Positions 3,534 to 19,760 of a stretch of DNA of 21,955 nucleotides are shown here, piece by piece. The stretch covers positions 1-21,955 of IMG/VR virus record IMGVR_UViG_3300044675_009182; one strand, written 5' to 3'. Each line of letters starts with the position of its first letter. Within the stretch, counting starts at the first letter, position 1. The position numbers were made by a program, and so were the translations under genes. The notes beneath the pieces were generated by a model. That model did not search any database. It had not been told where the DNA came from and worked only from the letters and a program-made list of their open reading frames with translations. This DNA comes from a virus.

Positions 3534-4625
3534 CTAGAGTGTAATCGTGTAAGGGTCAACTACTGAGGTGAAATAGCTGACGCGCCAGTTGTCGGCGGTG
3601 ATGGAATGAGCAAGCCCCTCAACCACGCAGTTGATTGTGATAAAGCGACCATCGTAAGTCTCGCGCTTGACTTGAACCAAGTCGTTCAGTTCAGTCTCTA
3701 ACATGTCGGTAGCGAGTGCGCCGATACCGATAGCCGTGAAGTCGATCTGCTCAGCCAAAACCACAGCATCTGAGTCTTTGCGGGCGGCGTAGAGCGCTAG
3801 GTTGGCAGCGCTGGTCTCGCTAAAGATCGGGGCGTCGAGCTTTTTGGACTTTAGACCGTAAGTCGAAACACTTGAAGTGTAGCGGGCTGTCTTTTGAGTC
3901 TTTTTTGGGCCCCTGAAAACGATAGCCTCGTTATAAACATAGTCTGTGCCAGGGTTGGTGATGATGCCGTCGTAGCCCACGCTGTTAGCGTCGCCTTGGT
4001 CTGAAAAAAGAAGCCTGGTTGGGCGAGTGAACTTGTCTGCGATATCAACGAGTGTGGCTACTCCTGTGCGGCTGACGTAAAAACGACCCCCGACGCAGTT
4101 TGCACACTGCTCGAGCATCTCGAGGCAGCTCATGTTTTGTTTTGTCTTTTGCATGACAGTGGTGCCTGTTAGACTGCGGGCAGTCGCAGACCAGTCAGCG
4201 AGGTCAAGAGCGCGAGCAGCACGAACATTTGCAGCTTCTTGGAAGGAGCTGGTTGCAAGGGCAGGCGCTATCGCTTTGGCGATCTGTGCCAAGCCATCAA
4301 CGAAGGTCAAAGAGACGGTCGGGTAGATGCCTTGGTTTACTGCGTTATCCTCTAGAAAACCAGTGTAAATGACGGTTGCGTTGCCTGTGATGCGAACCTG
4401 CATGCCAGCCACCAACACGTTGTACCACGGGCTTGAGGTGTTGCTTGGGTCGAAGGCTCCCGATTGGTTGTTGAGCACAACGTCCGCAGTGCCAGATTCT
4501 AAAAAGTCGTTTTGGTACTGGCGCCCGCGGCGAATGTTTACTTCGAGAAGCAGATCTGCGCTGACGTTAGTGAATGAGCCACCAATGCCGAATGCAACTG
4601 TGAGTGTTGGTGCATTTGCTGGCAT
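3534..4625 (-). CDS. Minor tail protein, probable distal tail/baseplate component, 363 aa
   Basis: Positioned directly after the tape measure (overlapping TAATG), where siphoviruses encode distal tail and baseplate hub proteins. The N-terminal part contains VNIRRGRQYQNDFLESG and ADVVLNNQSGAFDP, a pattern I associate with minor tail proteins that form an OB-like or tube-like fold at the tail tip. Later regions are mixed alpha/beta with a CANCVGG segment. There is no enzymatic motif and no membrane segment. It probably joins the tail tube to the fibre protein encoded next. Whether it is a distal tail protein or the hub itself cannot be separated without structure comparison. Confidence 0.75.
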   Translation of the reverse strand: MPANAPTLTVAFGIGGSFTNVSADLLLEVNIRRGRQYQNDFLESGTADVVLNNQSGAFDPSNTSSPWYNVLVAGMQVRITGNATVIYTGFLEDNAVNQGIYPTVSLTFVDGLAQIAKAIAPALATSSFQEAANVRAARALDLADWSATARSLTGTTVMQKTKQNMSCLEMLEQCANCVGGRFYVSRTGVATLVDIADKFTRPTRLLFSDQGDANSVGYDGIITNPGTDYVYNEAIVFRGPKKTQKTARYTSSVSTYGLKSKKLDAPIFSETSAANLALYAARKDSDAVVLAEQIDFTAIGIGALATDMLETELNDLVQVKRETYDGRFITINCVVEGLAHSITADNWRVSYFTSVVDPYTITL

Positions 4626-6175
4626 TAGAGCACCGCAAACTGACTACCAGCACGACGGCGCATTAAAGTGGCAAGGCCGTTCTTGATTCCATTGACGAGG
4701 TCCCCTTGTGAGACCACAGAGCCCGCGACGTTCACCGTGATGTTGCCCCCGTTCATGGTGGTGTTCTTTGCAATATTGCCGTGCCCAGCTGATGCAAGTA
4801 GCGAAATGGTTGGGCTAGAAATGCCGAGTCTCTTTTGCTTTAGCAAGTTCAAACGGACGGCCTCTCTAGTGATCGGGTCGTCCATGCCTTTCAGCGCCTT
4901 GTTCTTTTGGTTCAGCTTGTCTTGTGCGTTTGCTGACTTGTCAAGGGCCGCGTTGTACTTGATAGTCTCTTCTTTAACGCCCTTCATGTCGAACTTAAAC
5001 TTGCCCATAGCGTCTGCAGCCTTGTCAGAGTCCTTGTTAAACTTGTTGGCAGCGATGCCGATACCGACGAGAGCTACTCCAAAAGCGGCTGCTCCTGCGG
5101 CGGCTGAAATACCACCAGTCGCAAGTGCGGTAGCTGCGGCCGATGCAAGTGAAACAGTGCGCAGAGCTTTCATTACTTTAATAATCGCCTGCACGCCTTT
5201 GATAAGACCAGCCACGGCTGCTGCGGTTTTTGCGCCAAAGAAAGCGGCTGCGATGACTGCACCAAGAGTGACGAACACTTTGGTGTTGCGGGCTACAAAT
5301 GAAAAGATCTCAAACATCAACTTGCCAAATGCTATGCCATAACTAATTGCTAGCTGGAAGGCTGCGGCCAACTTCTGACCATTGAGTTCAACCCACTTCT
5401 GAAGTAGTGGGAGTATGTCTTTTTGTAAATAATCTACGAACTGAACCAAGGCAGGCAAAAGCGCCTTGCCGATTGTTGTCCTAATACTCTCGAAGGAGTT
5501 TTTCAGTGCGATAATCGCGCCCTCAGGAGTCTTGCGTAACTCCTCATTGAAACCCTTGTAAGTCGAGTTGAGCACTTTGACGATGGCTGCAGAGCGCTCA
5601 GCTTCTGTGCCGTTTGAAATCAACTTTTTGGTTTGCTCGTCTAAAACGAAGCCAGCCCTAGTTAAAGCGCCGAATTGACCGTTGAGAGCTTGCGCCAAGC
5701 CGTTTGTCATGGTCTTGAACTGGTCAGCAGACGCAGTCGCGCCCTTTTCAGCTGTTACATAATCGAGGATTGCAGGTGTCAACGCCTGGATAGACGAGGC
5801 CTGCAAATCGAAAGTCGCAAGTTGGGACTGCACAACAGAGACGTTGCCAGCAGAGACCACACCGACTTTTTCGAGTGCTTCGGCTTGTGCATTTAAAATC
5901 TTTACTTGTTCGGCTGTTGCGCCGTTTGTGGTAAGCAAGATCTGGTTGAGTCTGTTTTGCTCGGCCTCTGCGCGGATTGCCGCTTGAACTGAGTCCTTGC
6001 CCAACTTAACTGCGAAAGCACCAGCCGCAAGAGCTGCTAAGCCGAAAGACTTTGCTGCTTTATTTGCGAACTTGCCGAACTGCTTTTCCATTCTTGAAAT
6101 GTCTTTGACAGCGGCTTTTGTGCCTTTGTCTGAATACTGGGTGAGAATGCGAGCGATTACTGCCCCAACTGCCAT
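4625..6175 (-). CDS. Tape measure protein, 516 aa
   Basis: Sets tail length by spanning the tube lumen during assembly and probably helps DNA entry. Evidence is the position after the tail assembly chaperone, the Ala- and Lys-rich helical composition throughout, and hydrophobic segments at about 296-325 (VFVTLGAVIAAAFFGA) and 345-376 (Ala/Gly-rich, ending GVALVGIGIAA), as usual in this family. The N-terminal 40-240 region is helical with a prophage-tail-like pattern (SVVQSQLATFDLQASSIQAL). At 516 residues it is short; at about 0.15 nm per residue it predicts a tail near 75-80 nm (inference). The ATG is three bases after the previous stop, with only a weak ribosome site, so coupling is likely. 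No lytic domain is seen. Confidence 0.88.
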   Translation of the reverse strand: MAVGAVIARILTQYSDKGTKAAVKDISRMEKQFGKFANKAAKSFGLAALAAGAFAVKLGKDSVQAAIRAEAEQNRLNQILLTTNGATAEQVKILNAQAEALEKVGVVSAGNVSVVQSQLATFDLQASSIQALTPAILDYVTAEKGATASADQFKTMTNGLAQALNGQFGALTRAGFVLDEQTKKLISNGTEAERSAAIVKVLNSTYKGFNEELRKTPEGAIIALKNSFESIRTTIGKALLPALVQFVDYLQKDILPLLQKWVELNGQKLAAAFQLAISYGIAFGKLMFEIFSFVARNTKVFVTLGAVIAAAFFGAKTAAAVAGLIKGVQAIIKVMKALRTVSLASAAATALATGGISAAAGAAAFGVALVGIGIAANKFNKDSDKAADAMGKFKFDMKGVKEETIKYNAALDKSANAQDKLNQKNKALKGMDDPITREAVRLNLLKQKRLGISSPTISLLASAGHGNIAKNTTMNGGNITVNVAGSVVSQGDLVNGIKNGLATLMRRRAGSQFAVL

Positions 6176-6178
6176 GTT

Positions 6179-6736
6179 CTATTCTCGCTCTCTGTCTAAG
6201 TTCTTTTGTAAGATGGCTTTCGCGTCGTCTAGTGCTGCCAAGGTCTTCATCTGTGCAGATCTCTTGCGTTCATCAACGGCACGCCAAATCAAACGCGACG
6301 GGTTTTTGATCTCGTCGGTTAGATTACGAATAAACTGAATGCCACTACCTGTGCCGTCCGATTTGCGGCCTGCAACTTCGATGATTGCACCAGCTGCAGA
6401 CTCATTGATAAGCGCACCAGCGCTGGTTGTGTAGTCTTTTCGGACTTTGCCTTGTGCTTTCGTTTTGCGAATGCCTTGCTGAATCACGCCTTGGTTGTAA
6501 GGCGGCCAGCCAGCACCACCACGGGTGGATTTTTTAGGCCTAAGCGGCTCAGTCGTTTTCCAGCCTCTCATAGGCGGCTCGGATTTCACGAAACCACGCG
6601 CTGCCCGTTCTGCATCTGAGAGCACCGAATTGATGACTGCATTGAAGTTCTTGACTGCGGTTTTGTCGAATGCCTTTAACGAAGTAAGAGTCTCCTCAAT
6701 TCCTATGAGGATAATATCACTTTCAGCTTCAGCCAT
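6179..6736 (-). CDS. Tail-region protein of unknown role, 185 aa
   Basis: Lies between the frameshifted tail chaperone and the tape measure, a position usually empty. The ATG overlaps the end of the -1-frame chaperone ORF. The protein starts MAEAESDIILIGIEETLTSL, has an acidic, helical N-terminus, a basic Pro/Gly-rich middle (LRPKKSTRGGAGWPPYNQG) and a helical C-terminus (AVDERKRSAQMKTLAALDDA). The overall pattern of a helix, a basic loop, then a hydrophobic strand is reminiscent of HK97 gp10-type tail completion proteins. The match is by feel only and its genomic position differs from the usual one, so I leave the function open. Confidence 0.6.
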   Translation of the reverse strand: MAEAESDIILIGIEETLTSLKAFDKTAVKNFNAVINSVLSDAERAARGFVKSEPPMRGWKTTEPLRPKKSTRGGAGWPPYNQGVIQQGIRKTKAQGKVRKDYTTSAGALINESAAGAIIEVAGRKSDGTGSGIQFIRNLTDEIKNPSRLIWRAVDERKRSAQMKTLAALDDAKAILQKNLDRERE

Positions 6737-6884
6737 GTTTTTTCGCCCGCTCTTTCAAGTAAACTGTTATTGCTTCAAGTACCCCCTCGGGGGCATCAAG
6801 CAAATCGATCGGAGAGATGCCAGTCTCCACCGAGATAGCGGCGACTGTGTACGTTAAGCTATCTCGGTGGATTCGAAAGACGCG
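6729..6884 (-). CDS. Tail assembly chaperone, second (-1 frame) part
   Basis: An open frame without a good start codon overlaps the end of the 92-aa chaperone gene in the -1 frame and runs to a TGA inside the next gene. After the overlap it encodes LTYTVAAISVETGISPIDLL, then a helical segment (EGVLEAITVYLKERAKK). This is the composition and length I expect of the downstream part of a GT-type tail chaperone. The given interval is the whole stop-to-stop open stretch. The true product is probably a fusion with the upstream ORF through -1 ribosomal frameshifting somewhere within 6857-6884. A separate start (for example GTG within GCTATCTCGGTGG) is a weaker alternative. Confidence 0.7.
   Translation of the reverse strand, partial: RVFRIHRDSLTYTVAAISVETGISPIDLLDAPEGVLEAITVYLKERAKKHG
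6826..6871 (-). promoter_or_regulatory. Perfect 14-bp stem-loop at the chaperone frameshift
   Basis: On the minus strand TCCACCGAGATAGC (6871-6858) is followed, after an 18-base loop, by its exact reverse complement (6839-6826). The stop codon of the zero-frame ORF (6856-6854) lies at the start of the loop. The stem begins three bases after TCT TTC GAA, inside the window where the -1 frame opens. The position fits an RNA structure that stalls ribosomes and stimulates -1 frameshifting. I see no standard X XXY YYZ heptamer, so the slip site is unresolved. Confidence 0.75.
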
Positions 6885-7132
6885 TCAGAGTCCAGTTCTG
6901 CCGACACCACGGTGTCCAAGAACTCGGGGCCCCATGGCTTTACAATAACTCCGTTGGTTTGCATCGACTTCCAGGCCAACCAGTAAACGTGCTCGATCTT
7001 TTGTTCCTCGCCCAGCAACTTCGGCATTCCTTTGCCGTACTGTTGTTCGAATGCCACGATGACTCGAGGAGTCAATCTGTATGATGCCTCGAGGCCGTCT
7101 GTGGTTTTAACCTTGATTGATAAGCCGTCCAT
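6854..7132 (-). CDS. Tail assembly chaperone, first part (G-like), 92 aa
   Basis: Small acidic protein that, by position between the tail-tube proteins and the tape measure, should coat or escort the tape measure during tail assembly. It begins MDGLSIKVKTTDGLEASYRL, with a beta N-terminus, followed by helices (VIVAFEQQYG and IEHVYWLAWKSMQ) and an acidic C-terminus (ELDSDASFESTEIA). The VAFE and YWLAW pattern is typical of actinophage tail assembly chaperones. The ATG has a GGGGGAA ribosome site. The zero-frame stop sits in the loop of a 14-bp hairpin, and a -1 frame continues for more than 40 codons, so a longer fused product is expected at some frequency. Confidence 0.85.
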   Translation of the reverse strand: MDGLSIKVKTTDGLEASYRLTPRVIVAFEQQYGKGMPKLLGEEQKIEHVYWLAWKSMQTNGVIVKPWGPEFLDTVVSAELDSDASFESTEIA

Positions 7133-7150: not shown

Positions 7151-7540
7151 TTATGACTTTGTAATAACGCCGCTGATCGGCCAGGTGACCGAAGCGGTTG
7201 CAAGCTCGCCGACGGCTCCATTGAGCGGAGTCCATTCGGAGACCAAAGCAGTAAAACTGTAAGCTGGAGAGGAGCCCGCAACTGGACGCACAGTAATCGA
7301 GACTCCTGTGCCAAGTGTTGGGTAAATAGTCGCCTCTAGAGCGCTCGCTGCGTAGTCCTGATTGAACTCGAAGTTTACGCTGTTGTCCGCAAGGCCTGCA
7401 ACGCGGGTGCGTGCGGTATTGCCGAAGGCTGTTGTCTCGACTACGTCGTAGTTTGAGCCAAGCGTCACCGAAGTGACGTAGCTTGAAATGTCTGTTGTGC
7501 CGAATGTGACGGCAACGTTCGTGAGGACAATGCGTGCCAC
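7151..7540 (-). CDS. Major tail (tube) protein, second copy, 129 aa
   Basis: A paralogue of the gene immediately upstream. I place the start at the GTG at 7540, which overlaps the previous stop (TAGTG) and aligns with the start of the paralogue (VARIVLTN against MARLVLTN). Upstream in-frame codons would add an unrelated extension. It contains VVETTAFGNTARTR, the pattern shared with tail-tube proteins of actinophages, and a near-identical C-terminal block (YSFTALVSEWTPLNGAVGEL). The third-codon positions of that block differ widely from the other copy, so the duplication is not recent. One or both copies should form the tube that surrounds the tape measure. Confidence 0.82.
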   Translation of the reverse strand: MARIVLTNVAVTFGTTDISSYVTSVTLGSNYDVVETTAFGNTARTRVAGLADNSVNFEFNQDYAASALEATIYPTLGTGVSITVRPVAGSSPAYSFTALVSEWTPLNGAVGELATASVTWPISGVITKS

Positions 7541-7947
7541 TAGATGACCGCCTTTGTAACTTCGCCGCTGATCTGCCAAGTAACGCTAGCAGTGGCTAAC
7601 TCGCCGACAGCACCATTCAAAGGAGTCCATTCGGACACCAAGGCGGTGAAACTGTATGATGGGTTGTCTGCTGCTGTTGTTGCGCCGTTTGGCTTGACTA
7701 CTACTGCAGTGGTTGCGCCAAGCAGTGGGTAGATTGTTGCTTCAACGTTGCTAGTCGCGTAGTCTTGGTGGAACTCGAGTGCTACTGAGTTGTCTCCAAG
7801 GCCGCCAATGCGAGTGCGTGCGGTTGAACCAAAAGCAGTCGTCTCAACAACGTCGTCATTTGTTGTTAATGTGACGCTTGCGATGTGATCACTCAGGTTC
7901 ACTGAGTTGATTGTGATATATGCATTTGTTAGGACTAATCGGGCCAT
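7540..7947 (-). CDS. Major tail (tube) protein, first copy, 135 aa
   Basis: The small beta-rich protein starts MARLVLTNAYITINSVNLSD and contains VVETTAFGSTARTRIGGLGD, a hallmark of short tail-tube subunits. It is followed by a conserved C-terminal beta region (YSFTALVSEWTPLNGAVG). The ATG overlaps the stop of the small upstream ORF (TAATG) and its stop overlaps the GTG of the second copy, so both copies should be made in a coupled way. It differs from the second copy mainly in a longer loop (residues about 84-95, VKPNGATTAADN). Which copy is the main tube subunit is not decidable from sequence. Confidence 0.85.
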   Translation of the reverse strand: MARLVLTNAYITINSVNLSDHIASVTLTTNDDVVETTAFGSTARTRIGGLGDNSVALEFHQDYATSNVEATIYPLLGATTAVVVKPNGATTAADNPSYSFTALVSEWTPLNGAVGELATASVTWQISGEVTKAVI

Positions 7948-9140: not shown

Positions 9141-9836
9141 CTAGCTGTTCTCGTTGAGTTGCCAATCAATGTGATGCTTTTCGTCGAGCCAGTAAGTCTT
9201 TTGGTGCGGCAAGATAGCCGCGGTGTTTACGTAAATCGGAAAGCCAAGTTGTCTAACTCTGCGACTAAAGAGCAGATCTTCACTTATCCAAATGCCATTG
9301 AGTGGGCCGTCCCAAAACCAGCACCAGTCGGTGCCTTGGTGTGGGTCTGCCATTTCGCGCATCTTTTCGAGTACGCTTCTGTGTATCAGTAGGCAACCAG
9401 TGCCACAAGCGTCGATCTCGAAAATCGCGTTGCGGTCGTACTTGTTGAGCGGTAGAAAGCCCTCGGGCGCGTCTTGGAATATCGCGGGCACGGGCTGAGG
9501 GTAAAGGTTTTGGTCGGCATTAAAAGCCGCGAACACAAGCCCCGAGACCACTGGGCGCTCTTTGTCGTGCGCTGTGTTGATAAGCAGATCGAACACTTGA
9601 ACTGTAAGTTGCTCGTCGGTGTCTATTAGCAAAAGCCAATCAGAAGTGGTGTTATCAAGAAAAGCCTTGACCACTCGATTTCGCAACTTGCTAAGAAGCC
9701 CTGAGCCCTTGATGCGAATAAACGGGCCAAGTGTGGAGCCGCGAGACTGTGCCAGCTGGACCATGCGAAAGGCGAAGTCGCCGTTCACAGAGCCTGGGTC
9801 ACAAACCCCGATTGATACTTTATGACTTGATTTCAT
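9141..9836 (-). CDS. Glycosyltransferase, GT-A fold (GT2-like), 231 aa
   Basis: Expected to move a sugar from a nucleotide sugar to an acceptor. It shows a metal-binding DTD motif at residues 72-74 (WLLLIDTDEQ), preceded by an N-terminal nucleotide-binding region (VSIGVCDPGSVNG). ACGTGCLLIHRSVLEKM and WISEDLLFSRRVRQLGFPIY follow, the acceptor-side pattern of GT-A enzymes. No membrane segment or signal peptide is seen, so it acts in the cytoplasm, possibly on phage structural proteins. Similar genes occur directly after the capsid gene in actinophages. The start has a strong GGGGGAG ribosome site right after the hairpin that follows the capsid gene. Substrate and sugar are unknown. Confidence 0.85.
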   Translation of the reverse strand: MKSSHKVSIGVCDPGSVNGDFAFRMVQLAQSRGSTLGPFIRIKGSGLLSKLRNRVVKAFLDNTTSDWLLLIDTDEQLTVQVFDLLINTAHDKERPVVSGLVFAAFNADQNLYPQPVPAIFQDAPEGFLPLNKYDRNAIFEIDACGTGCLLIHRSVLEKMREMADPHQGTDWCWFWDGPLNGIWISEDLLFSRRVRQLGFPIYVNTAAILPHQKTYWLDEKHHIDWQLNENS

Positions 9837-9852: not shown

Positions 9853-9894
9853 GCACAGAGCAGATGAGTCGGGGGAGTCTCACCTGCTCTGTGC
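9853..9894 (-). terminator. 16-bp hairpin after the capsid gene
   Basis: GCACAGAGCAG (9894-9884 on the minus strand) pairs perfectly with CTGCTCTGTGC (9863-9853). Five further pairs, one of them G-U, extend the stem to 16 bp around a 10-base loop. It lies 22 bases after the capsid stop (9916-9918) and ends 17 bases before the ATG of the next gene. No U-tract follows, so it may act as a partial terminator or a 3'-end stabiliser that raises capsid mRNA over downstream genes. Confidence 0.75.
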
Positions 9895-9915: not shown

Positions 9916-11265
9916 TTAGAAGGAAGGTGCTACCAAACCAGTGCCTGAAATAATCGAGGCAGCGCCTGGGTAACGTCCAGCTGTGAATGCGCTAAATCCG
10001 TAAACGACAGTCTTGATTGTCAAGCTGCCTGGAGATGTTGCATCGAAACGGAGTGAGAACGGTGAGCCTGGTTGCTCCCATAGGTGCATTTCGCGTGAAT
10101 CAACAAGGTAGATTTCGTCCTGGTTGGTTGCTGCGCCGTAGGTTGTGCCTACGTTTGCATCTGTGATGATTGGAAGACCTAGAAGCTGGTAGCCTGAGTT
10201 CGCGTATTGTGCGACTCCTGCACCTTGTGCAACTGCGTTCATTACACCGTTAGCTGTTGGTACAACTACTGGGCGACCTGTTGAGTCTGTTGCGGCCAAA
10301 AGGAACGCAAGGCGACGTGGGTGCATAATCCAGTGAGTTGGAGTTGTGAAGACGTTGCTCTGTACTTGCTGCAAAGCGTCTGCTAGCTTTGGGTACAAGA
10401 GTGCGACTGTTGGTGTTGTCGCTGTGAATGTGATTGCGTTTCCACCTGAAGCGCGGATACCGAGCATCTGGCCGTTTGAGCCAGTACCGTTCAGAATCTG
10501 TGAGTCAAGTGTTGTGTGCCATGAACGAATGAGGTCTGCAACGACGAATGTGTCGATGCCTGTACCGCGCTCGATTGCTTGGCGTGATAGGTCCTGTTGT
10601 CCAGCGATTGTGCGCACGTTAACAGTGAGCAGTGTGTCGTCAGCATCAGTCTCTGAAACTGCTGTGTTCTGTGTTTCCTGAACTGCAGTCGATGTGCCAG
10701 TCGTCATTCTACTGATTTCAAGCGTCATACCACTTGGTGGCAGTGCCATCTTGTTTGTTGCGAAGTCGGCTGTTGGGCGTCCTGCGCGAGCTAGCGGAGC
10801 TGCTAATTCAGTGAGATATTGAGGTACCACAAGTCCTACGAAGTTGCCAGTTCCAACGTCACGACGCTCGACTGACTCTTCTTTCATGTGGCGAGCTAAA
10901 CGCTCGTTTGCTGAGTAGTCGTTGCGGAACTGAGCATTGAACGCGTCCTTGATAAACGAGTTCTCAGAGTCTGCTGTGTATGTGCGAGCCTCTGATACGA
11001 CGCGAGCGCCGCCTACTGCTGCAGGTGTTGCAACTGCCACTACTGATGCACGTGCTTCTGCAGCCTTAATGTCTGCGTCAGCCTGTGTTTTTAACTTTTC
11101 GATTTTTGTATCGAGTGAACGTGACTCTTCTACAAGAGCGTCAACCTTCTCGGTCTCCTCTGCAGTAAGGTCGGTGCGGTTCTCTTCAGCTACTGCTTCA
11201 AGAACTGCATCCATTTCTGCCTTAACTGCATCACGGCGCTCGATTACTTTGTCAAGATATGACAT
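9916..11265 (-). CDS. Major capsid protein, HK97 fold, 449 aa
   Basis: Forms the icosahedral head. I choose the ATG at 11265, with AAGGAG upstream, over upstream in-frame codons that would add a Ser/Thr-rich stretch unlike a capsid. Residues 1-72 are a charged coiled coil (MSYLDKVIERRDAVKAEMDA, then VEESRSLDTKIEKLKTQAD), the scaffold-like delta region usually removed by the prohead protease. The rest has the HK97 pattern: PQYLTELAAPLARAGRPTAD, LPPSGMTLEISRM, an E-loop-like segment, HWIMHPRRLAFLLA, and a P-domain-like end (FSLRFDATSPGSLTIKTVVY). It sits directly downstream of portal and protease. A hairpin follows the gene. Confidence 0.93.
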   Translation of the reverse strand: MSYLDKVIERRDAVKAEMDAVLEAVAEENRTDLTAEETEKVDALVEESRSLDTKIEKLKTQADADIKAAEARASVVAVATPAAVGGARVVSEARTYTADSENSFIKDAFNAQFRNDYSANERLARHMKEESVERRDVGTGNFVGLVVPQYLTELAAPLARAGRPTADFATNKMALPPSGMTLEISRMTTGTSTAVQETQNTAVSETDADDTLLTVNVRTIAGQQDLSRQAIERGTGIDTFVVADLIRSWHTTLDSQILNGTGSNGQMLGIRASGGNAITFTATTPTVALLYPKLADALQQVQSNVFTTPTHWIMHPRRLAFLLAATDSTGRPVVVPTANGVMNAVAQGAGVAQYANSGYQLLGLPIITDANVGTTYGAATNQDEIYLVDSREMHLWEQPGSPFSLRFDATSPGSLTIKTVVYGFSAFTAGRYPGAASIISGTGLVAPSF

Positions 11266-12349: not shown

Positions 12350-13782
12350 TACTCGACCTCATAGACTGATAGTGGGTTTGCTGGGTCAATCGTTGAAACT
12401 TGTTGCAACTGACCTGTTGGCACTCCCGTGTGAGTCATCGGTGGCAACCCGACCGCTTCGAGGACCGATTTCGGCTCGAAACCAACCTGAATTAAGTTGG
12501 TAGCGATCTCGGTGCGTAGTTTCATACCGACATCTTTAGCGTCTGATGCGTCGATGTTCTGCAAGGGAACTCTGTACTGGTCGCCTGATTCACCAAGCGG
12601 ACTCAGATCTTCAACAGCTCTGACGTCATTGAGTGAAAGGAAACCCTCGTTCAAACCTTTGGTGTAAGCGTCGTAGCGCTCGAGTGTGGTGCCGCGAAGT
12701 AGAGCATCAAGGTTGAACTTGATGAAGCCGTCAGGCTCGGGCAAAAGAGGTGAGAGTGCTTGCTCTAGACGCTCCAAGAGTGGGCGCAGTGAGTGTTGAA
12801 CGAAAGAAAGGTTTTGAGCTTCAACTGATGCAAAGCTCATGGCTCCAGCCACTGGGTGGCCAAGTAGTGAAATCGGAACGCGGAACAAGCGGGCAATCTC
12901 TTCGACTCCGAAACGGCGTACTTCGAGAAGTTGGGCGTCAGCAGCGTTGAGCATTAGCGGCTTGAATGAAGCGCCACCAGTCAAAACACCGAGCTTGCCA
13001 GCGCGGTATGGGCCTGTGTGTGAAAGATTCCAGTTGCGAGCGATGTCTGTGATCTGCTCCTCAGTCAGTTCGCCTGGAGATTCAATCACGCCGCCTGGGT
13101 TTGCGGCGTTGCCAAAGTAGCTAGCTGCGTAAACCTCGGCTGCCATCGCAGAACCTAGAGTAACCCGAGCGGCGCCGATTGGACCGAGGCCTAAAAGTTG
13201 GCCAGGGAGTCTGAACATCGGAATATGAAGCATCTCGCGCTTCGTTAGTATCATGGTTTTTGTGGCACCCTCTGCAGATTGTAGCCCGTCGTACAGGCTG
13301 TTCTGACTGTTTGTGCCGATTGTGACTTCGTAGTAGATTTCGGCTTCTGCACTTGGACGGCGAATGCGCACGTTCTGCGGGTTAACGCAGTAGAGTTCTA
13401 CAACATCACCCATTTCGTCGCGGGTGGTTAGGATAAAAGCGTTGCCGTGCAGGTTTAGAGAGGAGACAACTTGCTCAAAGAACTCGAGGCGTGTAGTGTC
13501 AGGGTTTGGGTTGTTCACCCAAGCTGGTTGCTCGCCATAAACCACGGCGTACGGGATTCGGTTGCGGCCGCGGCGAACGTAAGCGCCAAGCGGCAAAGAC
13601 GCGATGGTGTCGCCCAAAAGGCGCACACAAGCATAAACAGTTGACATGCGAATCGCAGTGTCGGCATTGACATCAACGCCAGCTGGAGACGAGTATGCAG
13701 GACGACCAGGCACAAGCGGCTCGACGAACTGGTTCTGAGCGCGTTGCTCACCTGCTGCTCGCAGTCTTTTCGATAAGCTCAT
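12349..13782 (-). CDS. Portal protein, HK97 type, 477 aa
   Basis: Forms the dodecameric ring at the packaging vertex. Clear family patterns: MSTVYACVRLLGDTIASLPL (residues about 46-65), a wing/stem region with LHGNAFILTTRDEMGDVVEL and the VNPQNVRIRR strand, REMLHIPMFRLPGQLLGLGP, and the late EIARLFRVPISLLGHPVAGA with SFASVEAQNLSFVQHSLRPL. Length fits the family (about 400-480). The ATG overlaps the stop of the upstream glycosyltransferase (ATGA). It is followed directly by protease and capsid, the standard head order. What is unusual is that terminase is separated from it by about six kilobases of appendage genes. Confidence 0.93.
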   Translation of the reverse strand: MSLSKRLRAAGEQRAQNQFVEPLVPGRPAYSSPAGVDVNADTAIRMSTVYACVRLLGDTIASLPLGAYVRRGRNRIPYAVVYGEQPAWVNNPNPDTTRLEFFEQVVSSLNLHGNAFILTTRDEMGDVVELYCVNPQNVRIRRPSAEAEIYYEVTIGTNSQNSLYDGLQSAEGATKTMILTKREMLHIPMFRLPGQLLGLGPIGAARVTLGSAMAAEVYAASYFGNAANPGGVIESPGELTEEQITDIARNWNLSHTGPYRAGKLGVLTGGASFKPLMLNAADAQLLEVRRFGVEEIARLFRVPISLLGHPVAGAMSFASVEAQNLSFVQHSLRPLLERLEQALSPLLPEPDGFIKFNLDALLRGTTLERYDAYTKGLNEGFLSLNDVRAVEDLSPLGESGDQYRVPLQNIDASDAKDVGMKLRTEIATNLIQVGFEPKSVLEAVGLPPMTHTGVPTGQLQQVSTIDPANPLSVYEVE

Positions 13783-14858
13783 TTAGTGGCCTTTTCCTTG
13801 TTGTTTAGTTGGTACCAGCCGTCGTCCCAAAGGGTCAACAGCCTCTCAAAGTAGTCTTGGTATTTTGGTGCTATCGCTTCGAGTGAGTATTTCTCGATTG
13901 CTTGCTTTCTGATCTGCTTGCGGTTCAAAGACTTGACGTCTTCTGCCGCCTTAATGAAGTCTGCAAGAGTGCGACACCTGAAGCCAGTCACTCCGTGAAC
14001 GTTGGTCTCAACAAAAGCGCCCCAGTCAGTTGTGATGGTTGGAGTGCCGCAAGTCTGAGCTTCGACCACGATATTACCGAAAGGCTCGATGTAGGTCGTC
14101 GGCGCAAACAACGCAATCGCGCCACCCATCAACTCTGCCCGTTTTTTGGGGCCAATGTTGCCGATGAACTCGCCATAGCCGCCGTTTGGTTGGCCAGGAC
14201 CCGCGATGATGAGCCTCTTACCGAGGCGCTCGCAAACCTCTTGTGCGATGTTGTAGCCTTTTCGCTCGATCAGCCTGCCAATAAAAAAGTAGTAGTCGCC
14301 GTCGCCTTTGCCAGCTGGGAACATCTCAGGCTCGAGATATCCGTTGATGACCCCATCAAAGAAGTTGCCATCTACTGTGGTCGGATTCTTGTGCCCTGCA
14401 TAGACGGAGTGCATCCATGCGTAGGACTCAAAAACGCGATACCGTGCGAATGTGCCGCCGTAGCCAATGCCAAACTCCACCGACATGTGGTCAGGGAAAG
14501 CATCTGCGATTGGTTTATGTGCGTAGCCACCGATCAGACAAATGAAGTCTTTTGGTCGGAGCCTTGTTGTCATCTCGCGAACGACGTTTGCATTGAAGAT
14601 CTGCCAGTGCGGCAGTGTTGTGTCAAACGAGGCTGTCGTGTAATGACCGCCTGCAGTTGCAGCTTCTCGTTGCTTTTCGTTGATGCAAGTGACCAACTCC
14701 GTCACTGGCGCTTCGTTCTGCTCTCCAGCGTAAAGAATGACCTCATGACCCAAATCTGTCATCATAATGCAGAAGCGCCTCACCTTTTCAGTGAATGCGC
14801 AGCTTGTAAAGTCTTTAGTTGTGTTTGTGTGTGGAAGAGATACGACGTGAAATCTCAT
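13779..14858 (-). CDS. Glycosyltransferase, GT4-like (GT-B fold), 359 aa
   Basis: Retaining-type enzyme expected to use a nucleotide sugar. The C-terminal half has FFIGRLIERKGYNIAQEV, KRLIIAGPGQPNGGYG and the E-x7-E motif EPFGNIVVE (Glu258 and Glu266), then GTPTITTDWGAFVETNVHG, all characteristic of GT4. The N-terminus (MRFHVVSLPHTNTTKDFTSC) is acceptor-binding and more individual. I start at the ATG 14858, with GGGGGACC upstream, over a GTG at 14879 that overlaps the previous stop. Between the appendage island and the portal it may modify a virion protein or host surface sugars; no acceptor is visible. No signal peptide. Confidence 0.87.
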   Translation of the reverse strand: MRFHVVSLPHTNTTKDFTSCAFTEKVRRFCIMMTDLGHEVILYAGEQNEAPVTELVTCINEKQREAATAGGHYTTASFDTTLPHWQIFNANVVREMTTRLRPKDFICLIGGYAHKPIADAFPDHMSVEFGIGYGGTFARYRVFESYAWMHSVYAGHKNPTTVDGNFFDGVINGYLEPEMFPAGKGDGDYYFFIGRLIERKGYNIAQEVCERLGKRLIIAGPGQPNGGYGEFIGNIGPKKRAELMGGAIALFAPTTYIEPFGNIVVEAQTCGTPTITTDWGAFVETNVHGVTGFRCRTLADFIKAAEDVKSLNRKQIRKQAIEKYSLEAIAPKYQDYFERLLTLWDDGWYQLNNKEKATK

Positions 14859-14878
14859 TGGTCCCCCGACCTTTTCCA

Positions 14879-15106
14879 CTAGAGTGCTGCGATTTCTTCT
14901 GCTGTTAGACCAAGGGCGGCGAGTTTTGCTTCTGCTGATGCTTTTGCCGCTGCTTTGGCTTCTAAAACTGCTTGTTTTTCGGCCATTTCTTGACGGTAAA
15001 TAGCTGCATCTGCTTCGCGTTGAGCTATTTCCTGTTCAGTTAATTGCAAGATTTGAGATTGCCCTGTTGAACAATCAACTATGACTTTAGTAAGTGGTTG
15101 TGACAT
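14879..15106 (-). CDS. Small coiled-coil protein linked to fibre genes, 75 aa
   Basis: Begins MSQPLTKVIVDCSTGQSQIL, then a long charged Ala-rich helix (EEIAQREADAAIYRQEM-like) and a conserved end (SAEAKLAALGLTAEEIAAL). I have seen this plan (VDCSTG, a helical arm and a terminal A-K-L-A-A-L-G-L-T-xx-E motif) in small phage proteins encoded beside fibre or receptor-binding genes, sometimes called tail fibre assembly-like. It therefore probably belongs to the appendage island. The ATG has AAAGGGA upstream. It is the last gene of the island before the glycosyltransferase. The biochemical role is not established. Confidence 0.75.
   Translation of the reverse strand: MSQPLTKVIVDCSTGQSQILQLTEQEIAQREADAAIYRQEMAEKQAVLEAKAAAKASAEAKLAALGLTAEEIAAL

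Positions 15107-17530: not shown

Positions 17531-19760
<2,230 letters not shown>

Follow-up and report, generated by a model that had tools for sequence, protein, structure and literature searches.

Probable programmed -1 ribosomal frameshifting beside a conserved hairpin in a putative tail assembly chaperone gene of an uncultured siphophage

Results

Two overlapping reading frames between the tail tube and tape measure genes

We analysed a 21,955-nucleotide stretch of an uncultured virus (IMG/VR record IMGVR_UViG_3300044675_009182), called the window below, and collected the features of the locus under study in Table 1. The preliminary description had reported a 92-aa ORF stopping at 6854 and a -1 frame open from 6884 to 6729, and we found both at these coordinates, the -1 frame running from 6884 to its own stop codon at 6731-6729. 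The 92-aa ORF is placed between the tail tube genes and the tape measure gene, with the 185-aa ORF intervening before the latter. The tail tube genes are 2 tandem, overlapping and similar ORFs (7151-7579 and 7540-7947, minus strand), both resembling major tail (tube) proteins. The head and tail module also contains 2 glycosyltransferase-like genes (9141-9836 and 13779-14879, minus strand), a perfect 11-bp inverted repeat with a 20-nt loop lies in the gap after the major capsid gene (9853-9894) and is possibly a terminator, and a long ORF at 17531-19414 (minus strand) encodes collagen-like GPTGATG repeats, which account for the long open frames found there on the other strand and in the other frames. 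Most matches of the terminase and capsid proteins are to actinobacterial phages (approximately 35-42% identity), which makes an actinobacterial host likely.

Table 1. Features of the frameshift locus and neighbouring genes in the window.
Feature	Coordinates	Strand	Evidence or remark
Zero-frame ORF, 92 aa	6854..7132	-	Putative gpG-like short form of the tail assembly chaperone; >370 IMG/VR loci
-1 frame ORF, putative T-like extension	6729..6884	-	-1 amino acids conserved from the CGA codon in 106 unique junctions
Putative start of the translated part of the -1 ORF, CGA codon	6875-6873	-	
Proposed slip site G_TCT_TTC	6875..6881	-	Upstream -1 stops in relatives and invariant downstream Arg; TTTC conserved in the sub-clade
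Proposed re-pairing tetranucleotide U_UUC	6878-6875	-	
Spacer from slip site to stem, GAA, 3 nt	6872..6874	-	6 nt in CCC-type relatives
5' arm of the putative stimulatory stem, TCCACCGAGATAGC	6858..6871	-	Covariation and synonymous constraint
Loop, 18 nt, with the zero-frame stop TAA (6856-6854); -1 reading LTYTVA	6840..6857	-	Wobble changes, conserved -1 amino acids
3' arm of the stem, GCTATCTCGGTGGA	6826..6839	-	Rare synonymous codons frozen
ORF of 185 aa, downstream; start overlaps the end of the -1 ORF	6179..6736	-	Context
Tape measure protein gene	4625..6175	-	phrog_1533 tape measure, E 1.3e-8
Major tail protein gene	7151..7579	-	phrog_4574 major tail protein, E 1.9e-23

The arrangement is that of a tail assembly chaperone gene, placed after the major tail protein gene and before the tape measure gene and having a conserved second half in another frame without a start of its own. 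The G part had no family match in Pfam or PHROGs. Modelled with AlphaFold (mean pLDDT 82.8), the first half gave good matches to unnamed viral proteins and weak viral matches (E 0.1-0.4) to proteins named tail assembly chaperone, and a fold search of the PDB with this model returned no significant match. Known tail assembly chaperones are highly divergent, so the lack of a family match is weak evidence, and by position, size and two-frame layout the gene most likely encodes such a chaperone.

Relatives were collected by scanning IMG/VR with the first ORF, an alignment and 3 second-half queries, which yielded more than 370 loci with 165 unique junctions; when a slightly longer stretch was counted, 106 unique junctions carried the TCCAC stem base. 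No match was found among cultured phages with the window's own protein halves, nor in a contig scan of genomes with the T part as query. Distant members of the family led, with weak scores (E 0.01-0.03), to Pontimonas phage phiPsal1, of the cultured phages the nearest one identified by synteny.

The -1 frame is conserved directly after the TTC codon

The bases between TTC and the zero-frame stop codon serve 2 frames each. In the 106 unique junctions the -1 frame reads F/L, R, I/V, H, R, D/N/E and S over this stretch, and the zero frame reads F/S/L/stop, E/G, S, T, E/A/V/G, T/I/K/S/N and A/L/V/P/R from the same bases. Both -1 arginines are invariant (106/106), the first through 4 codons (AGA, CGA, CGG and AGG) and the second through 5 (CGA, CGC, AGA, CGT and CGG), the serine is likewise invariant (106/106), and the histidine is found in 105 of the 106. 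This conservation sets in at the codon immediately 3' of TTC, and comparison of the relatives shows, at the level of sequence, use of the -1 frame from the CGA codon onward. The loop is also translated in this frame, judging from the LTYTVA-type residues that are kept among relatives while the wobble bases vary.

The slip site is a reduced heptamer in the clade of the window

In the window the codons TCT (6880-6878) and TTC (6877-6875) lie at the point of shift, TTC ending 3 nt before the stem. There is no in-frame X_XXY_YYZ heptamer at this site, which reads G_TCT_TTC, and its U_UUC has the Z_ZZN pattern (PMC5009743), on which one tRNA or more can pair again after a -1 slip. L041-type relatives read TGA TGA TTC TTT CGG in the -1 frame, so that the shift cannot occur upstream of TCT, and in 18 unique junctions a -1 stop lies 3 codons ahead of the arginine. 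In a neighbouring clade, L258 has a zero-frame stop immediately 3' of CCT TCC, which puts the shift there at or before these codons. The comparison thereby shows a shift position that, as read from these sequences, lies within TCT/TTC (6880-6875).

The absence of a standard slip site, as claimed in the preliminary description, holds for the sub-clade of the window but not for its relatives, as 38 of the 106 unique junctions combine the same stem with a canonical heptamer (CCCAAAT/C, CCCTTTT or AAATTTC). These heptamers (C_CCA_AAT, C_CCT_TTT or A_AAT_TTC) lie at the site or one codon upstream. The remaining 68 have CCCTTCC (22), CCCTTCT (5), TTCTTTC (28) or GTCTTTC (13). CCC-type heptamers stand 6 nt from the stem and the TTTC type 3 nt. 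The codon preceding TTC is always TCT in the clade of the window and AAT in neighbouring sub-clades, and the base preceding TCT in the window's clade is U or G. In 2 loci with CCCAAATTTC and 1 with CCCTTCTTTC the 2 slip positions overlap, and these loci look like intermediates of a one-codon move. From this comparison, the site of the window is best read as the remnant of a heptamer that has kept its second-codon half alone (NNU_UUC), shifted by one codon towards the stem. Published shift sites include the minimal Z_ZZN form as well as heptamers whose first codon is imperfect, that of T7 gene 10 among them (PMC5009743); the window's site is therefore a reduced form of a known type and not a new kind, reduced sites of this type being already on record.

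Additionally, C_CCT_TCC, with a canonical first half and an imperfect second half, recurs as a slip candidate across several clades (L249-type, L211-type and the distant L309 and L310), and a large group of distant relatives (L327-L383) has GAA GAA AAA AAA followed by an immediate zero-frame stop, a run of 8 A that could also permit transcriptional slippage. We rejected transcriptional slippage at the window, as only 3 T occur in a row at the site.

The hairpin is maintained as an RNA structure

The perfect 14-bp stem with the stop codon in its 18-nt loop (6871-6826), noted previously, was recovered with both arms fully paired. The hairpin stretch has a fold energy of -29 kcal/mol (z -3.2, with 1 of 200 shuffles equally good) and its stem is the longest perfect hairpin of the window for loops of 3-30 nt; no 14-bp perfect hairpin appeared in 20 dinucleotide shuffles of the whole window. 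Across 102 sequences, 970 of the 1020 cells of the 10-bp core are paired. Shuffling the 3' letters of each column among sequences gave at most 923 paired cells in 500 trials, and recoding the 3' arm synonymously with the family's own codon usage gave at most 764 (mean 736) in 1000 trials. Stem pairing tests of this kind leave some effect of shared ancestry; the synonymous test runs sequence by sequence, and taken in this way it gave p 0.003 for the window alone and p <0.05 for 75 of the 102 sequences. The codons point in the same direction: the stem valine is GTG in 91 of 99 cases, although this is the rarest valine codon elsewhere in the region (13/121), and TCG encodes the stem serine in 61 of 74 cases, compared with 11 of 157 elsewhere.

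An alignment of relatives, proposed in the preliminary description as a check for covariation, revealed pairs that vary in concert. At pair -9/+26, C-G is replaced by A-T, each side having changed about 5 times on the tree, and pair -7/+24 is found in the forms A-T, C-G, T-G and G-T. L278-type relatives retain an 8-bp stem with its register shifted along the 3' arm, and the lower stem is mismatched in 2 sub-clades with the 3-nt spacer. RNAalifold on all 102 sequences gave a weak consensus fold (-5.47 kcal/mol) with a covariation-term bonus of zero, which we attribute to an upper stem that differs between sub-clades and to several pairs that never vary; the pair counts and the codon test are for this reason the stronger evidence. 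The stem is retained throughout the clade, and relatives lacking it, which had been considered as grounds against the frameshift, are not the case there. Comparison thus shows selection on the stem that, judged from sequence variation, acts on it as RNA, and chance folding was rejected as its source by the synonymous recoding, the covariation and its rank as the longest hairpin in the window.

Alternative explanations

We considered whether the hairpin might be a by-product of coding or have another role, for example in stabilising the mRNA or in coupling to the gene downstream. Both arms are coding, and a comparable hairpin is missing from most of the distant homologues that have CCCTTTA or A-run slip sites; but the pairing is far above what the amino acids require, the pairs covary and the stem begins 3 or 6 nt past the slip site, all of which make these explanations improbable. 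The position of the stop codon, in the loop of a strong hairpin immediately 3' of the coding part, recalls T4 gene 60, where the ribosome hops over a hairpin. Such bypassing deserves hardly any credence here, given that the codons of the loop and arms are selected for their -1 amino acids, with wobble positions free to vary in the loop, and so are translated. Production of the second half as a separate protein from its own start, either the GTG at the 3'-arm valine codon or a downstream TTG, would dispense with frameshifting altogether, and GTG is indeed present at that codon in 91 of the 106 unique junctions. The codon is otherwise GTT, GTA or another one, however, no Shine-Dalgarno-like sequence precedes the GTG in the window, the conserved -1 codons start far upstream of it, directly after TTC, and the stem accounts for the retention of GTG. 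An independent start is accordingly very unlikely, and the relatives share no start codon preceded by a ribosome-binding site, the kind of strong start that the preliminary description had weighed against its own reading.

Within -1 frameshifting, the slip could also involve a single tRNA, TTC occupying the P site and GAA the A site. The heptamer begins with U in 28 and with G in 13 unique junctions, with about 4 changes on the tree, which indicates that the first tRNA need not re-pair exactly, and U_UUC by itself matches the minimal Z_ZZN shift site (PMC5009743). Conversely, these TTTC-type sub-clades have no codon other than TCT or AAT before TTC, and bacterial ribosomes pause when a stem-loop lies 11-12 nt 3' of the first base in the P site (PMC7282821). 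The stem starts at base +10 if TCT occupies the P site, and about 2 bp would then be open, compared with about 5 bp already open if TTC does. From this pause distance we favour a slip that takes place while TCT and TTC occupy the P and A sites, or in the translocation step that follows, and regard the single-tRNA slip as possible but the less probable course. The P-site slip on TTC put forward in the preliminary description was right in placing TTC at the shift, while the geometry and the conservation of TCT fit the TCT/TTC arrangement better.

Discussion

The conservation in the -1 frame and the covariation of the stem back the earlier proposal that a -1 frameshift at TTC, beside the stem, joins the 2 chaperone halves, and we consider it highly probable, from the comparison of sequences, that this siphophage gene uses programmed -1 ribosomal frameshifting. 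Most ribosomes would end at TAA (6856-6854) and release the 92-aa G form, which would make the short form the major product. A ribosome whose P and A sites are occupied by TCT and TTC would reach the base of the stem at the mRNA entry and pause, and in a fraction of cases slip back by one base, with tRNA-Phe re-pairing from UUC to UUU and tRNA-Ser shifting onto GUC, where pairing is poor. Reading would then resume at CGA-ATC-CAC and continue via the stem and the loop, giving a 134-aa G-T fusion. We infer that the stem stimulates slippage, as well as which tRNAs move and when, and the 2 products may act like gpG and gpGT of lambda. The poor re-pairing of the P-site half (UCU to GUC) counts against the frameshift. 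A tRNA-Ser reading UCU has a G-U pair in the middle when placed on UUC, and on GUC, as in the window, there is an extra mismatch. The stem would compensate for this weak first half of the slip site.

As interpreted here, the locus shares with lambda gpG/gpGT and their counterparts in dsDNA phages the position before the tape measure gene, a pair of short and long products with a common N-terminus, the -1 direction and a frame change close to where the first ORF ends (PMC5009743); it differs in the lack of a canonical heptamer, the covarying 3' hairpin and the absence of a detectable sequence family match. Mycobacteriophage Bipper has, similarly, a chaperone annotated as a joined CDS between the tail tube and tape measure genes. 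The full heptamer of T7 gene 10 is G_GUU_UUC. As in the window, its first codon re-pairs imperfectly (X_XX = G_GU) and UUC can re-pair to UUU, but it is a capsid gene in which a terminator sequence more than 200 nt 3', rather than a hairpin directly 3', is involved (PMC5009743). E. coli dnaX resembles the window in its simple 3' stem-loop and IS1222 (A_AAG type) in its Z_ZZN-type shift site (PMC5009743), whereas the dnaX and IS-element slip sites are A-rich and belong to unrelated genes. The most studied spacers are of 5-9 nt (PMC5009743), and that of the window, with 3 nt, is shorter, which counts against the frameshift as well, as do the mismatches in the lower stem of the 2 sub-clades with this spacer.

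In phiPsal1 (MG835450), gene 016 has a first half distantly similar to the family (28.9% identity and E 0.01 to a distant member) and an overlapping -1 ORF, and the order of major capsid, glycosyltransferases, neck, tail completion, tail tube, gene 016, a hypothetical gene and tape measure resembles that of the window. Its structural module likewise contains glycosyltransferases. Unlike the window, phiPsal1 has the slip candidate A_AAA_AAA beside the stop codon and no significant matching hairpin. The -1 frame past TCA AAA AAA TAA reads KITGLGDSSAHWTIAMLACETHISPRELMELDPRMLWTMQRYLVSRAQ..., and this chaperone second half is unannotated (MG835450.1, approximately 11065-11232; L386:286-453).

The median hairpin energies by slip class are -25.3 kcal/mol for GTCTTT, -22.6 for TTCTTT and -17.7 for CCCAAA, the strongest stem going with the weakest site, in an association that is not significant and amounts to about 2 independent comparisons on the tree. 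It is conceivable, and we put it forward tentatively, that the slip site moved and decayed against a fixed RNA stem, which would carry most of the stimulation, from an ancestral canonical heptamer 6 nt from the stem, through intermediates of the CCCAAATTTC and CCCTTCTTTC kind, to a clade with U_UUC as its sole slippery element, 3 nt from a stem lengthened to 13-14 bp. If this is true, the natural relatives would be a ready-made series on stem strength versus slip-site quality.

We found no account of this chaperone family in the open-access literature searched, nor of a tail chaperone site that combines U_UUC with a hairpin. The comparative support is strong, and these results would place programmed frameshifting in many uncultured phages for whose chaperone no matching family was found in the libraries searched. 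The second half of such genes may go unnoticed where annotation depends on canonical slip sites or on families already known, and in phiPsal1 it is unannotated. The presence of canonical and reduced sites around a single conserved stem makes it possible to test how far a hairpin can compensate for a weak slip site in bacteria.
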